This document shows, piece after piece, positions 8,273 to 64,000 of a stretch of DNA of 64,000 bases. The position numbers were made by a program, and so were the translations under genes. The notes beneath the pieces were generated by a model, which was not told the DNA's origin, did not search any database, and was given only the letters and a program-made list of their open reading frames with translations. Numbering within the stretch: position 1 is the first letter of the stretch; every line of letters begins with the position of its first letter. The stretch spans positions 62,001 through 126,000 of the forward strand of contig RQOL01000389.1 in NCBI GenBank assembly GCA_013076295.1, in the 5' to 3' direction. This stretch comes from Sanderia malayensis (taxonomy: Eukaryota > Cnidaria > Scyphozoa > Semaeostomeae > Pelagiidae).

Positions 8273-11270
8273 ATGTAAAATGGACTGAATTGAAGAACAT
8301 CATTTTTACTTGCTTTCCGTTAATTAACATTCATTCCCACAATTTACACATGAATCCACCTAAATACAGCTAGTCCTGACTGATTGAATCCACTTACTTT
8401 TTTTACTTGTTTTCCGTGATTTTAACATTCATTCTCATAAATTACACATATATTAACGTAAATACAGGGAAACTGACTGATTGAAATACACTCCTTTTAC
8501 TTGTTTTCTGTGATATTAACATTCATCTTTCCATATATTTAGACAGGAATCCAGGTTAATGCAGCTAAAATTGACTGATTGAAATGCACACTTTTTACTT
8601 TTTTCCGTGATATTTACATTCATTCCCACAATTTACACATGAATCCACGATGATACAGTTTCATTAGACTAAGGTACACCTTAATTACTTTGTTTTCCGT
8701 GATATTAACATTCATTCCCACAATTTACACATGAATCCACCTTAATACAGCGAATCCTGATTTATTGAATTACACACAATTTTTACATCTTTTCCGTGAT
8801 TTTAAAATTCTTTCCCACAATTTACACACGAATTAACGTAAAACAGGTGACACTGGCTGATTGAAAATGCACACATTTTTACTTTTTTTCCGTGATATTA
8901 ACATTCATGCCCAAAATTTAAACATTAATTAACTTAGATACATGTAAAACTGACTGATTGAAATACACTTTTTTCACTTGTTTTCCTTATATTAACATTC
9001 ATTCCTGCCAATTTAACACATGAATCCACGTTAACACAGAGAAAACCGACCGATTGAAATACACCATTTTTACTTGTTTTCCGTGATATTAACATTTATT
9101 CCCACAATTTACGCAGAAATCCCAGTAATACAGCTAAAGTTGACGATTGAAATACACCCTTTTTATTTTTGTTCCCTGATATTAACTTTCATTTTCCCAC
9201 AATTTACACATGAATCCACGTTAAGACAGCTAATCCTGACTCATTGACTGACACCACTTTTACTTGTTTTCCGTGATATTAACATTCATTCCACAATTTA
9301 CACATGAATCTACGTTAATAGAGCTAACCTGACTAATTGAAATACACTTTTTACTTGTTTTCCTGATATTAACATTAATTCCTACAATTTACACATGAGT
9401 TGACTTTATAAACATGTAAAACGGACTGATTAAAATCACCTTTTTTACTTATTTTCCGTGATATTAACAATCATTCCCACAAATTACATGTGAATCACGT
9501 TAATACAGGTAAAGTTGACTGATTGAAATTCACCCATTTCACTTTTTTCCGTGATATTAACATTTATTCCCACAATTTACACATAAATTAACGTAAATAC
9601 AGGGAAAATTAACTGATTGAAATACACTCCCTTTTACTTGTTTTCTGTGATATTAACATTCATTCCCATAATTTAGACAGGAATCCACGTTAATGCAGCT
9701 AAAATTGACTGATTGAAATTCACCCATTTTACTGTTTTCCGTGATTATATACATTCATTCCCTCAATTTACACACTAATTAACGTAAATACATGTAAAAC
9801 TGACTGATTGAAATACACCTTTTTTACTTGTTTCCCGTGATATTAACATTCATTCCCACAATTTAAACATGAATCCACCTGAATACAGCAAGTCCTGAGT
9901 GATTGAATTACACTTTTTACTTGTTTTCAGTGATTTTAACATTTCTTCCCACAATTTACACATGAATCACTATATATACAGGTAAAACTGACTAATTGAA
10001 ATACACATTTTTACCTGTTTTCCGGGATATTTACATTCATTCCCACATTTTCCACATGAAATAACGTAAATACCAGGAAAACTGACTGATTGAAATACAC
10101 AATTTTTAGTTGTTTTCCTTGATATAAACATTAATTCCCACAATTTACCCATGAATTGACTTTATAAACATGTAAAATTGACTGATTGAAATACACTATT
10201 TTTACTTGTTTTCCGTGATATTAACATTCATTCCCACAATTTACACATGAATTGATGAAAATACTGGGCAAACTGACTGATTGAATAACACCATTTTACT
10301 TGTTTTCCGTGATATTAACATTCATCCCACAATTTACACATGAATCCACGTTAATACAGGTAAAAACTGACTGATTGAAATGCACCTTTTTTACTTGTTT
10401 CCGTGATATAACATTCATTCCCACAACACACATGAATCCACGTTAATACAGGTAAAACTGATTGATTGAAATTCACCCTTTTTATTTTTTTCCGTTATAT
10501 TAGCATTCATTCGCATAACTACACATCAATCCACCTTAATACAGCTAATCCTGATTGATTGAATTACACCTTTTTACATCTTTTCCGTGATTTTAAAATT
10601 CTTTCCCACAATTTCCACGGAATTAACGTAAAAACAGGTGACACTGGCTGATTGAAATGCACCATTTTACTTGTTTTCCGTGAAAGTAACATTAATTCCC
10701 ACATTACACATAAATTGACTTTATATTCATGTAAAACGGACTGATGAACAACACCATTTACTGCTTTCCGTTATATTAACATTCATTCCCACAATTTACA
10801 CATGAATCCACTTAAATACAGCTAGTCCTGACTGATTAATTACACTTTTTTTACTTTTTCCGTGATTTTAACATTAATTCCCACAATTTACACATGAATC
10901 CACGTTAAATACAGCTAAAACTGATTCATTGAAATTCACCCTTTTTACTTTTTCTCGTGATATTAACATTCTTTCCCAAATTTACACATGAAAACGAAAA
11001 TACAGGGAAAACTGACTGACTGAATTACACTTTTTTACTTCTTTTCCGTGATTTTAACATTATTCCCACAACTTTACACATGAATTGACTTCATAAAAGT
11101 AAAATTGACTGATTGAAATTCACCCTTTTCACTTTTTTCCGTGATATTAACATTCATTCCAACAAGTTAGACATGAATCCACTTTAATACAGCTAAAATT
11201 ACTGATTGAAATTCACCCTTTTTACTTTTTTCCGTGATTTTAATATTCATTCTCACAAATTACACATGAA
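8273..11270 (-). repeat. Satellite between insertion and assembly gap, indel-rich
   Basis: Ordinary A and B monomers, but many have single-base losses in homopolymers or short deletions. Examples are GTTTCCGTGATATAACATTC near 10400 and CACAACACACATGAA near 10427. A copy of the 1520-bp unit's CATTCGCATAAC to CAGGTGACACTGGC section lies at about 10510-10650. No gene or other element is seen. Sequence quality may fall toward the gap. Confidence 0.85.
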
Positions 11271-60031: not shown

Positions 60032-61040
60032 AATTGTGGGAATTAATGTTAAAATCACGGAAAACAAGTAAAAAAAGTGTAATTCAATCAGTCAGGACTA
60101 GCTGTATTTAAGTGGATTCATGTGTAAATTGTGGGAATGAATGTTAATATAACGGAAAGCAAGTAAAAATGGTGTTGTTCAATCAGTCCGTTTTACATGT
60201 ATATAAAGTCAATTTATGTGTAAAGTGTGGGAATTAATGTTACTTTCACGGAAAAAAAGTAAAAATGGTGTATTTCAATCAGTCAGTTTTTCCTGTATTT
60301 ACCTTAATTCATGTGTAAATTGTGGGAATGAATGATAATATCACGGGAAAAAGTAAAAAGGGTGACTTTCAATCAGTCAATTTTAGCTGTATTAACGGGG
60401 ATTCATTTGTAAATTGTGGGAATGAATGTTAATATCACGGAAAAGGAGAAAAAATGTGTATTTCAATCAGTCAGTTTCCCTGTATTAACATGAATGAACA
60501 TGACAATTAACATGAATGGGAATGAACGTCAATATCACGGGAAAAAAGTAAGAAAGGTGTATTTCAATTAGTCAGTTTTAAATGTTTATAAAGTCAATTC
60601 ACGTGTAAAGTGTGGGAAAGAATGTTAAAATTACGGAAAACAATTAAAAAAGGGGTAATTCAATCAGTCAGGATTAACTGTTTTAACGTGGATTCATGTG
60701 TAATTTGTGAGAATGAATGTTAAAATCACGGAAAAAAGTAAAAAGGGTGAATTTCAATCAGTCAATTTTAGCTGTATTAAAGTGGATTCATGTCTAAGTT
60801 GTTGGAATGAATGTTAATATCACGGAAAACAAGTAAAAAGAGTGCATTTCAATCAGTCAGTTTTCCTGTATTTACGTTAATTCATGTGTAAATGGGAATG
60901 AATGTTAATATCACGGAAAAAATGAAAAGGGTGAATTTCAATCAGTCAATTTTACCTGTATTAACGTGGATTCATATGTAAATTGCGGGAATGAATGTTA
61001 ATATCACGGAAAACAAGTAAAAATGGTGTATTTACACATG

Positions 61041-61343
61041 TACACATGAATTGACTTTATATACAGGTAAAAGTGGCTGATTGAAATACACCTTTTTTAC
61101 TTGTTTACTGGGATATTTACATTCATTCCCACATTTTACACATGAATCCACGTTAATACAGCTAAAATTCACTGATTGAAATTCACCCTTTTTACATTTT
61201 CCTGTGATATTAACATTCATTCCCACAATTTACACATGAATTAACGTAAATACAGGGAAAACTGACTGATTGAAATACACCATTTTTACTTGTTTTCCGT
61301 GATATTAACATTCATTCCCGCAATTTACATATGAATCCACGTT
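61041..61343 (-). repeat. Inverted repeat, right arm: reversed satellite stub next to LINE
   Basis: Three monomers in the opposite orientation to the preceding 50 kb. They are joined through the duplicated word ACACATG (61034-61040, then 61042-61048). The arm ends at ATGAATCCACGTT, where the LINE 5' region starts. It could be a real fold-back or template switch, or an assembly join. Confidence 0.92.
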
Positions 61344-61557
61344 TTTATTGGGGAATTGAATTGAATGCAATTTGGGAGCACACGTGTGTTTGAAAGCTCT
61401 GTGTTTTTGTGAGAATTGCAACCGTTTTTGAGCCTATTAAGGAGATAAAGGCTTCTAGGGAATTAAATAAAGACTTGTTTTTGTTATTTTTGATGTTTTA
61501 GAAGGAGTGAGAAGGTGATTTTGCAATAAAAATTGAAGAAAGAAGCAAAAAGGAAAC

Positions 61558-61569
61558 TGGCCTAGCTGT
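61558..61569 (+). promoter_or_regulatory. A-box-like element (RNA polymerase III)
   Basis: TGGCCTAGCTGT fits the TRGCNNAGYNGG consensus except for the last base. It lies 72 nt upstream of a perfect B box. The surrounding sequence does not fold as a tRNA: no D stem and no acceptor pairing. Confidence 0.35.
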
Positions 61570-61641
61570 GAAGCGAAAGAGCAAGACAAATACTCTTTCT
61601 GCTGCAGAGAGATTCTCAGCAGAAGCAGCGATTGTACCACA

Positions 61642-61652
61642 GGTTCAATACC
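61642..61652 (+). promoter_or_regulatory. B-box-like element (RNA polymerase III)
   Basis: GGTTCAATACC matches GGTTCRANNCC at every fixed position. It sits in the loop of a short hairpin (CCACAGG and CCAGTGG, one A-A mismatch). A T-run that could end polymerase III transcription follows from about 61672. Confidence 0.4.
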
Positions 61653-61663
61653 AGTGGGGGACA

Positions 61664-61742
61664 ATTTTGTTGTTTTTTTTTTTTGTAAAAAAAAAGAATT
61701 TTTTTTTTTTTTTTTTCTTTTTTTTAACTTGTTGTTTTTTTT
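61664..61742 (+). repeat. T-rich/A-rich low-complexity tract
   Basis: Successive runs of T, then an A9 run, then long T runs, ending just before the ORF1 start. The A run can pair with either T run in RNA. Homopolymer lengths here are likely to be uncertain. Confidence 0.85.
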
Positions 61743-61755
61743 TTCTGCCTTTGTG

Positions 61756-62937
61756 ATGGCAAACTTCTCGGTTTTAGAAAATGGCTTTTGTTCTTCATGC
61801 AACAAATCTGTCGGTGACCTAGAGTTTACATGTTGTAGACTTTGTAAGTTAAAATTCCATGCAACTTGCTCTAAACAAAGTTCAGACGAGAAATGGGGAT
61901 CATACACCATGATTAAGTTGTTTAATGCGACATCTACAAAGAGAAATTTTTTCTTCCTCTGTGATCTTTGTCTTACTTCCTTTGAAGTTTCTGGGGCCAT
62001 GAGTGAAAACAATAGACTTTCCATCATTGAGCAAACTCTTCAGTCTACATTGAATGAGGTTAATGAAATAAAGAAACTTGTTGCAGGTAACTCAAAGTTA
62101 TTTGAAAAGAATCAGACACAACATAATAATCTCTGGAATGATGCTGCTCGCACAAATAATTTATTTTCTGATAGAACTGAGTCTCAGCTAATAATTAATA
62201 AAACTGGAATTACGAAAGATGATATTCACAACATTCAGGAAGTGGAAAAAATTGTACTTGACAAAGATATCCCATTGAAGTCCACATTTGAAACAAAAAT
62301 GGGTGATATTGTTCTTGTTTGCCCTTCTCCAGCTGTACGTGAAAAACTGGAGGAGGAAGTTCTTACAAAAAATATTCCATTAAAGACACCAAAAATTAAA
62401 TCCACAGTTATTTCAATTGTTGGCTTAGGCAAGTCCTTTTCAAATGAGGAGGCTACGAATCTCCTTGTGAAACAGAATATTTTTCTTTCTTCGTTTTTGG
62501 AACACAAGAAACAAGAAGACCATTTTAAAGTGTTTGCAGTAAAACCGTTGAAAAATAAATCTGATGTCTATCAGGCCTTTGTGAGAGTATCTCTCCCTGT
62601 TAGGGATGGTATGACAAGCCAAAACGACAAAATGTTGATTGGTTTAAAATCATGCAAGGTATATGACCAATGTCATATAAAACGTTGCAATAAGTGCCAA
62701 AAATTTGGACATTACATTGCTAAGTGCCCTTCGGAAGGTTATTCCTGCGCCAAATGCGCTGGCAGTCACAAAACTGACTCTTGCACCTCAGTAAAGCTGA
62801 GCTGCATTAATTGCTCAAAGTCACAGCTTTTGGAAGCCCAATGTAATCATGCAGCAAATTCTCTGGACTGCCCAACAATGTTGAAGGCGAAAAAGGAAGC
62901 TAAGGAGAATTTAAACCTGCTTCTGAAAAGACATTGA
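61756..62937 (+). CDS. LINE ORF1: PHD-like finger, RRM-like region and zinc-knuckle RNA-binding protein
   Basis: A 393-residue protein, expected by family to bind the element's RNA and form the retrotransposition particle. The ATG at 61756 has G at -3 and +4 and excludes a poly-Phe extension. Residues 12-72 form a C4HC3 PHD-like finger: C12, C15, C27, C30, H35, C38, C69, C72. Residues 83-118 look coiled-coil-like. About 214-290 resembles an RRM (VISIVGLG, then FKVFAVKPL and AFVRVSL). CCHC knuckles lie at C311-C314-H319-C324 and C331-C334-H338-C343. A third is irregular (C350, C353, H365, C372) with a widened spacing. The tail is basic (residues 377-393). The last codons overlap ORF2 in the -1 frame and contain T TTA AAC. 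Intact and free of stops. PHD, RRM and knuckle calls are by eye. Confidence 0.9.
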   Translation: MANFSVLENGFCSSCNKSVGDLEFTCCRLCKLKFHATCSKQSSDEKWGSYTMIKLFNATSTKRNFFFLCDLCLTSFEVSGAMSENNRLSIIEQTLQSTLNEVNEIKKLVAGNSKLFEKNQTQHNNLWNDAARTNNLFSDRTESQLIINKTGITKDDIHNIQEVEKIVLDKDIPLKSTFETKMGDIVLVCPSPAVREKLEEEVLTKNIPLKTPKIKSTVISIVGLGKSFSNEEATNLLVKQNIFLSSFLEHKKQEDHFKVFAVKPLKNKSDVYQAFVRVSLPVRDGMTSQNDKMLIGLKSCKVYDQCHIKRCNKCQKFGHYIAKCPSEGYSCAKCAGSHKTDSCTSVKLSCINCSKSQLLEAQCNHAANSLDCPTMLKAKKEAKENLNLLLKRH

Positions 62938-64000
62938 ACTTTATTAAATGCTTGCTTTTGAACTGCCAGTCAATACGAAATAAGTTAAATATAGTGATGG
63001 AACACGTTGTTGACTTTAGTGCCGACATTGTTTTCTTAACCGAGACGTGGCTCCAACAGAATTGTGATGCAACAATAGCAAACCTTAAAGACTTTAATTA
63101 CCATTTTATCCATATACCACGTGAGGATAGACAAAAGGAAACAGGCGGAGGAGTGGGCATTCTCATCAAAGGGACATTGAGACAGACTTCAGTACCTATG
63201 CAACAGTTTCAGTCATTTGAATGCTGCATAGCGAAACTCTTTTGTCACCGCAAAGAATCTGTACTACTTGTTGCAATATACCGTCTGAGCTATGTCTCTG
63301 CAGAAGTATTTATAAGTGAATTCACAGAGTTTATGGAAATTTTATCCAGCTTCAATCTGAGTTTTATTGTCGCAGGTGATATCAATGTTCACATGGATGT
63401 GCCGAGTGAAAAATTAACAAAAGAATTTTCAAATATTATAGCACTTTTTAACTTAACACAACATGTAAGTGATCCAACGCATGTTGCTGGGCACACTCTG
63501 GATATTGTTCTTACTCAGAGTCATGAACTAGCCATCTCAAACACAATTGTCCATGATGTCAGCTTGAGTGACCACAGCTTGATTTCCTTCAATGTAAACC
63601 TAACACATCATCATAGTGAATATAAAATAGTTCAGTGTAGAGATCACAAAAGTATTGATAAAGACGCTTTCTCTTTAAACATGTTAAGTGCACTTCAAAA
63701 TATTAACAGTGCAGACAATTTTCAATCTGCCATTGATAAATACAATTATGCACTTAGGTCCACATTAGATGCTCATGCGCCAATGAAAGAAAAGTCGGTG
63801 AGAGTTGTCAGCAAAGCTCCATGGTTCGACAGTGAATATGCAAATCTTAGAAAGAGAAGGCACCATGCAGAGAAAGTTTATAGAAAGAGAAAAACAACAT
63901 CTAATAAGGAAATATTTATAAAACTTCGATCTGAAACAACAAAACTAGCAAAGACAAAGAAAATTCAATATTTTAAGAGAAACTCAACAACTCTAATAAT
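62904..64000 (+). CDS. LINE ORF2: apurinic-type endonuclease domain, start of polyprotein (3' incomplete)
   Basis: Open from just after an in-frame TAA (62901-62903) to the window end, 365 codons. Numbered from 62904, the endonuclease motifs are LNCQSIRNK with catalytic N20, FLTETWL with E47, GGGVGILIK, IYRLSY (YRPP-like, altered), AGDINVH with D159 and N161, THVAGHTLDIVLT, and SDHSLI with D223 and H224. All expected catalytic residues are present. This domain nicks target DNA for target-primed reverse transcription. A basic linker follows (APWFDSEYANLRKRR), as in L2-type proteins; the reverse transcriptase must lie past 64000. The first in-frame ATG (62997, codon 32) is downstream of N20, so a normal ATG start would yield a broken enzyme. 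The likely route is -1 frameshifting from ORF1 at 62910. The 62904 boundary is the open-frame limit, not a proven start. Confidence 0.88.
62910..62916 (+). promoter_or_regulatory. Candidate -1 ribosomal frameshift site, T TTA AAC
   Basis: In ORF1 phase the codons read AAT TTA AAC CTG, giving the heptamer T TTA AAC in the X XXY YYZ arrangement. UUUAAAC is a well-known efficient -1 slippery sequence in RNA viruses. Slipping back one base reads TTT AAA CCT, exactly the ORF2 frame, which is open from 62904. ORF1 would otherwise stop at 62935. By eye I see only weak AU-rich pairing downstream (AACTTTATT at 62937 with AATAAGTT at 62979, one bulge), so a stimulatory structure is unproven. Confidence 0.6.

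Follow-up and report, generated by a model that had tools for sequence, protein, structure and literature searches.

Conservation of a TTTAAAC heptamer at the ORF1-ORF2 junction of a Sanderia malayensis LINE clade points to a -1 programmed frameshift

A two-ORF, APE-type LINE with L2/CR1-like anatomy in the genome of Sanderia malayensis very probably makes an ORF1-ORF2 fusion by -1 programmed frameshifting at a UUUAAAC heptamer. A -1 frameshift at this junction had been predicted in an earlier note on the same DNA, and the conservation of the heptamer across genomic copies and relatives supports that prediction at the level of sequence. The sequence comparisons argue strongly for a conserved -1 frameshift site, and from them we infer that ribosomes shift at the heptamer and that the fusion is the working form of the protein. 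Since distant relatives kept the heptamer, the copying enzyme of these elements is probably produced as a frameshift fusion.

The window analysed here is a stretch of 64,000 nucleotides (contig RQOL01000389.1, positions 62,001 to 126,000, forward strand). Most of it, from position 1 to about 61,343, is a satellite array with a unit of about 95 bp, the orientation of which reverses near 11,270/11,371 and again near 61,033/61,041. The start of the LINE was placed at about 61,354: two other insertions (L003 and L004) are similar to the window from 61354 and 61356, and the satellite similarity stops at 61343. One further locus, L002, is a duplicate of the window end including its satellite (99.2% identical). 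This or a related satellite (67–95% identity) adjoins the LINE in 32 of 82 loci, some of them overlapping, which belong to many families (L001, L002, L004, L005, L014, L017, L020, L039, L046, L062, L066, L072, L078 and others); the LINE clade may prefer satellite arrays or be sheltered there. The features of the element are listed in Table 1.

Table 1. Features of the LINE and of its ORF1/ORF2 junction, in window coordinates.
Feature	Positions	Strand	Remark
LINE (non-LTR retrotransposon), 5' part	61354..64000	+	element continues past window end
ORF1, 393 aa	61756..62937	+	stop TGA 62935-62937
ORF1 stop TGA	62935..62937	+	direct reading
TAA, last upstream stop of the -1 (ORF2) frame	62901..62903	+	direct reading
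ORF1/ORF2 overlap, 34 nt	62904..62937	+	ORF2 frame is -1 to ORF1, open from 62904
Slippery heptamer T TTA AAC, proposed -1 frameshift site	62910..62916	+	direct reading; conservation in 54/55 junctions
ORF2 from heptamer: APE endonuclease and part of linker to RT	62910..63998	+	open to window end
First ORF2-frame ATG	62997..62999	+	80 nt past heptamer

The ORF2 frame of the window encodes an endonuclease (PF03372, E 1.2e-13), and the RT was read from the 98% identical copy L033 (PF00078, E 5.1e-32); ORF2 thus holds both the APE endonuclease and the RT of an APE-type two-ORF LINE, the RT part being taken from L033. The predicted structure of the endonuclease had a mean pLDDT of 92.4, and its Foldseek matches include the endonucleases of human L1 and TRAS1. 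In this structure an invariant Asn closes strand 1 (residues 5–18), and Met first occurs in the window's frame at residue 30; judging from the model, starting at the first ORF2-frame ATG would remove strand 1 together with this Asn. The Asn, and then a Ser and a Lys, are invariant in 59 rows selected as reaching the Asn. ORF1 contains a Cys-rich finger (PHD-like by its spacing), a long helix at residues 70–111, two RRM-like domains and zinc knuckles, and the Cys/His positions of the finger and knuckles are invariant or nearly so. Its structural model shows two beta-alpha-beta domains, the two RRMs expected of a type IC ORF1, with a Foldseek match to IMP3 RRM12 (E 1.2e-4) and a global pTM of only 0.44. 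No Pfam match above cut-off and no PHD match was obtained for ORF1, the zf-CCHC_2 score being 14.8 bits, which is below the cut-off of 27. According to the part of PMC4120745 drawn on here, a type IC ORF1 consists of a PHD, two RRM and three CCHC domains and occurs in L2 subgroup 2 and CR1 subgroup 3, with mosquitoes as the source of nearly every example. ORF1 resembles this type, and the L2/CR1 likeness of the element rests on this anatomy: the Cys finger, long helix, two RRM-like folds and zinc knuckles, with APE and RT in ORF2. The type IC proteins differ in being nearly all from mosquito, and no frameshift is mentioned in the part of the paper drawn on, the word "overlap" being absent from its main text.

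Direct reading of the window confirmed that T TTA AAC lies in the ORF1 phase within the overlap and that a -1 shift there leads into ORF2. The X XXY YYZ pattern that defines a -1 site is therefore present in the zero-frame phase, the ORF1 reading up to the stop being ...AAG GAG AAT TTA AAC CTG CTT CTG AAA AGA CAT TGA, with 18 nt between heptamer and TGA. When 12 codons were drawn randomly from the element's own codons (200,000 draws), an in-phase TTTAAAC occurred with P 0.0016 and any X XXY YYZ heptamer with P 0.057. A single copy is therefore weak evidence and conservation has to decide; the heptamer alone is only suggestive, as four other in-phase X XXY YYZ heptamers occur in ORF1 and one in the ORF2 part, a second TTTAAAC in the ORF2 phase at 63674-63680. 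Conservation places the junction heptamer far beyond chance.

The genome assembly (184 Mb in 918 contigs) holds many related copies. These were sought with the DNA of 61600-64000 and with the protein of 62904-63998; both queries span the junction, and the matches lie mostly outside it. Both searches score a limited candidate set, and the copy numbers are hence lower bounds. A total of 80 loci were examined for junctions, most partial matches that lacked the ORF2 N-terminus having been left out. Seventy of them were picked by the presence of TTTAAAC or TATAAAC near the expected place and resolved into 52 distinct places, 51 with TTTAAAC and one with TATAAAC, and the remaining ten were checked separately for misses. 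Among these ten, L047 (two junctions) and L079 (one junction) carried TTTAAAC; no junction was visible in L007, L008, L059, L060, L073 and L078, and the outgroups L074 (30% identity) and L076 (27%) had no heptamer. Overall, TTTAAAC was kept in 54 of the 55 junctions found within the clade in this one genome, the number of independent junctions being below 55, since the places include near-identical copies, and L002 repeats the window end. The sole variant, TATAAAC in L067, belongs to a broken element whose ORF2 is divided between two frames. Copies that keep both ORFs and lose the heptamer, which the earlier note had named as evidence that would speak against its prediction, were hence not seen inside the clade.

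Clustering at >90% identity gave 29 junction types, which were reduced to 23 by removing six with an indel nearby (L013, L026, L066, L070, L075 and L077, dropped from the cluster statistics, all of which still carry TTTAAAC) and then to 16 representatives. The representatives are 36–74% identical (mean 54%) over 103 flanking bases in an ungapped comparison, and all seven heptamer columns are invariant in 16/16. Across -60 to +150 (210 columns in 15 representatives, L061 being omitted for a deletion) the heptamer is the longest invariant run, the next longest being 4. Between +24 and +150 of ORF2, 14 or all of the 15 sequences agree at 15 residues, and the 13 of these residues with degenerate codons all use at least two codons, as in the Asn at +51, which is AAC in eight and AAT in seven. 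TTA accounts for 26% of the Leu codons of these elements, and AAC for 36% of their Asn codons. The first T of the heptamer is the third base of Asn, His, Ser, Ala or Thr codons in the representatives (Asp in L039 and L041) and its final C opens a His, Leu or Pro codon of the -1 frame; as neither base is set by one amino acid, the constraint looks to be at the nucleotide level, and conservation of the heptamer extends beyond coding need, as is expected of a -1 site. The earlier note had proposed to test whether the heptamer and the 34-nt overlap are conserved among copies and related elements. Conservation of the former was borne out in the copies and the divergent representatives, and the heptamer was deduced in metagenome relatives as well. 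The overlap is present in the window, but its length is not kept: neither the ORF1 stop nor the upstream -1 stop holds its position, while the heptamer and the -1 relation stay fixed.

The distribution of stops and starts around the junction is consistent with a change of frame at the heptamer. Among the 16 representatives, 12 stops interrupt the -1 frame in the 192 codons from -36 to -1, compared with none in the 224 codons from 0 to +41. Seven of 23 types have their -1 stop immediately upstream of TTT, and in these types the shift itself would be needed. Beyond the zero-frame stop the -1 frame behaves as a real coding frame, with the PF03372 match given above and 0 stops. The ORF1 stop falls at +25 in half of the representatives (8/16) and elsewhere in the other half. 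From the last -1 stop to the endonuclease Asn, 17 of 23 types lack an ORF2-frame AUG. The conserved stop codon overlapping or adjoining the ORF2 start that is seen in SART1-like elements was not found, since the stop position varies and the AUG is absent in these 17 types. Two observations count against frameshifting: an ORF2-frame AUG is found upstream of the endonuclease Asn in the other six types (L014, L021, L029, L044, L050 and L061), and an NTGA overlap of stop and near-start occurs at +24 in eight of 16 representatives. In L066 (C197:19100-22000) an extra base after the heptamer joins ORF1 and the endonuclease in one frame; this copy has other stops.

We also examined relatives outside the genome assembly. 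A protein search with ORF2 gave 270 relatives, of which the best 120 were examined, and a row was considered informative when its gene call began 20 or more residues ahead of the endonuclease motif, rows with shorter or later starts being left out. Among the best 120 of 270, FK followed by H, L or P was found in the ORF2 N-termini of 11 of 13 informative rows (P0001-P0101). The two without FK, P0079 and P0099, count against frameshifting, and P0099 lies outside the 92-row clade. The FK rows sit on several deep branches of this clade, which had a support of 99 in a quick tree (SH-aLRT) with nearly all rows metagenomic. FK in the outgroup rows P0105, P0113 and P0116 was put down to chance, being far upstream and in rows outside the clade. 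The metagenome ORF1s carry the matching signature: LN occurs within the last 20 residues in 34/41, versus 233 of 3156 windows (0.074) inside the same proteins, an enrichment with a binomial tail of 5e-32 that ignores relatedness. The seven ORF1s that do not have the LN tail are P0134, P0140, P0141, P0156, P0158, P0160 and P0161; by eye, P0140, P0156 and P0160 end short, and P0141 and P0161 are distantly related. The genuine exceptions are thus P0134 and P0158, which look full and count against frameshifting. P0131, one of the 34, shares its tail with family L021 and may come from Sanderia malayensis. Some relatives have a longer ORF1 of 459–519 aa (P0135-P0138, P0142-P0144, P0146 and P0148-P0154) with LN in the last 11 residues, mostly as L-N-x-stop; the tail of these proteins looks rich in Q, P, S and N and unconserved.

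For one ORF1/ORF2 pair, P0121 and P0001, a single offset of those tried fits both peptides and fixes CATTTAAACATG at the junction, and the two peptides jointly specify TTTAAAC. The two proteins appear to share one contig, given that both list 4564 bases and that their peptides fit. On the other hand, 27 of 116 tree rows start ORF2 only 2–12 residues before the endonuclease motif (26 with Met, one with Val; between P0006 and P0108), and this label is clustered on the tree, with 10 changes versus a shuffled mean of 19.2 and 0 of 500 shuffles as low. Some sub-lineages may thus initiate ORF2 at an AUG; alternatively, these starts may be the choice of the gene caller. DNA of the relatives was not found in a viral contig collection, and a genome contig collection yielded two distant relatives (36% and 34% identical) with no heptamer before the endonuclease.

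Most known -1 frameshift sites have a 3' structure. The earlier note had suggested folding 62917-63010 for a stem or pseudoknot, and neither was found there by RNAalifold, single folds or a helix scan. RNAalifold on 17 junctions gave no pairs; single-sequence folds were unremarkable against shuffles (z from -2.5 to 2.3, the window's own values being 1.2, 0.3 and 0.3); and a helix scan that did not require nesting, over -40 to +150 in 17 rows, gave no helix of at least 5 bp at a mean of 85% pairing, compared with 0–7 helices in 20 column shuffles. The 3' stimulatory stem or pseudoknot that is usual, though not universal, at such sites is thus absent from these results, the scan being aimed at conserved helices near the junction. 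Rfam gave no match in 61400-64000. A linear motif follows the heptamer, with T at +8 and +14 in 16/16 representatives and G at +9 and +15 in 14/16. The conserved NTGNTNNTGANNAAA is possibly a linear stimulator; as both frames code across the motif, this is only a guess.

ORF2 might alternatively be reached by termination-reinitiation, in which SART1-like stop/start coupling would allow a restart at a near-cognate NUG on the stop (TTGA/GTGA) or at a nearby AUG. In the window TTG at 62934-62936 overlaps TGA at 62935-62937, at a place where half of the representatives stop; L029 has TAATG with its ATG in the ORF2 frame, and five of 23 types have an ORF2-frame ATG between the heptamer and the endonuclease Asn. 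The other half of the representatives nevertheless stop elsewhere and no stop/start motif is common to all, L053, close to L029, having ATA in place of ATG. Moreover, the sole invariant run is the heptamer, for which a restart has no need, and the -1-frame stops disappear at the heptamer, ahead of the ORF1 stop. We therefore regard reinitiation as unlikely. A very unlikely explanation is that the heptamer is kept only through dual coding, ORF2 being begun in some other way: Leu-Asn in ORF1 and Phe-Lys in ORF2 together force TTTAAA by the genetic code, yet the last C is unforced (AAT encodes Asn too, and H, L and P all occur as the -1 residue); the base is C in 16/16, and none of the 55 junctions ends in T. 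Dual coding would also need -1 translation exactly from the heptamer, despite the stop directly before it in the seven types mentioned above.

Transcriptional slippage needs a long homopolymer, which TTTAAAC does not contain, and retrotransposed spliced RNAs would leave one-frame copies, whereas only L066 of the 29 types reads through; that ORF2 arises from spliced or edited RNA, or from transcriptional rather than ribosomal slippage, is accordingly highly improbable. The chance of a fortuitous motif, or of inherited likeness among young copies, is negligible in our estimation. Several copies are indeed 98–100% identical, the window end is itself duplicated in L002 and the motif has a P of 0.0016–0.057 in a single copy, but the representatives are only 36–74% identical in their flanks, other conserved codons have diverged and the metagenome relatives agree.

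In the tandem-slippage model, both tRNAs re-pair one base back. Applied to the -1 frameshift favoured here, the ribosome would hold Leu-tRNA on UUA and Asn-tRNA on AAC at the heptamer; both tRNAs would slip back by one base and re-pair on UUU and AAA, and translation would resume with CCU in the ORF2 frame. Ribosomes that do not shift would end at the ORF1 stop a few codons on and release a free ORF1 protein. The predicted unshifted product of the window ends in ...KENLNLLLKRH, and the fusion would read ...KENLN-PASEKTLNFIK..., that is, ...KENLN-PASEKTLNFIKC...; tryptic peptides that would distinguish the two are ENLNPASEK for the fusion and ENLNLLLK for ORF1.

UUUAAAC-type -1 frameshift sites are used by coronaviruses. 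Also, -1 ORF overlaps have been suggested in some R1-clade and other LINEs, and 2A (NPGP) recoding occurs in CR1-like LINEs. The likeness to the 2A LINEs is that a recoding signal adjoins the endonuclease in related LINEs; the difference is that 2A splits two proteins of the same frame, whereas the heptamer would join two frames. No NPGP was found in the ORF1 and ORF2 translations of the window. Outgroup LINEs of the same genome carry a 2A-like motif before the endonuclease (NPGP in L074, L084 and L085, CPGP in L083 and a degenerate form in L087), L076, L086 and L088 have no 2A-like motif, and none of these eight outgroup LINEs (L074, L076, L083-L088) has TTTAAAC at the ORF1/ORF2 junction. A 2A-like motif is also present in L082 and P0120, which like the 2A-bearing LINEs above are CR1-like outgroups. 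The 2A-like outgroups with no junction TTTAAAC suggest that two recoding strategies coexist among related LINEs of this genome.

A -1 gag-pol arrangement is described for many animal LTR retrotransposons in the part of PMC5009743 used here. The junction of the Sanderia element is like these and the coronavirus sites in having the same heptamer and phase, a gag-like first ORF that ends just downstream and a polymerase ORF in the -1 frame; it differs in belonging to a non-LTR element and in that no 3' pseudoknot or stem was found. How ORF2 is translated in bicistronic LINEs is an old question, and in the sections of PMC2881922 and PMC5009743 consulted the few studied cases involve reinitiation or unusual initiation. 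SART1-type translational coupling and the translation of human L1 ORF2 are covered in the same portion of PMC2881922 (the UAAUG detail being taken from a reference title). As in SART1 and human L1, a bicistronic LINE is concerned and translation of ORF2 would depend on that of ORF1; in contrast to them, there is a conserved slippery heptamer and no common stop/start motif, and a fusion rather than separate proteins would result. Recoding in non-LTR elements has been reported or suggested for the gag of HeT-A, by frameshifting (PMC5009743), and for Paramecium LINEs, by a +1 shift or reinitiation (PMC5405496), so far as the relevant passages go. HeT-A, however, needs its shift for gag and encodes no RT itself, in Paramecium the shift in question is +1, and neither passage contains a conserved UUUAAAC linking ORF1 to ORF2. 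Our literature search, with most subscription papers and Repbase Reports outside its reach, turned up no account of a slippery heptamer between ORF1 and ORF2 of a LINE.

The heptamer is a precise, conserved and directly testable signal at the ORF1/ORF2 junction in many LINE families, and a candidate natural -1 site that may work without a pseudoknot. If the proposed frameshift is true, a fused nucleic-acid-binding/RT protein would be made at a fixed ratio, like retroviral Gag-Pol, which would matter for RNP assembly and cis preference and for how recoding evolves. We further lean toward the broader view that the whole L2/CR1-like LINE clade, which is present in this genome and in many metagenome contigs, has long made its RT as a Gag-Pol-like fusion through a UUUAAAC -1 shift, with no conserved 3' structure and possibly with a linear stimulator. 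Unlike it, related LINEs of this genome bear 2A-like motifs. Were the broader view right, the clade would have converged on the retroviral and coronaviral solution.
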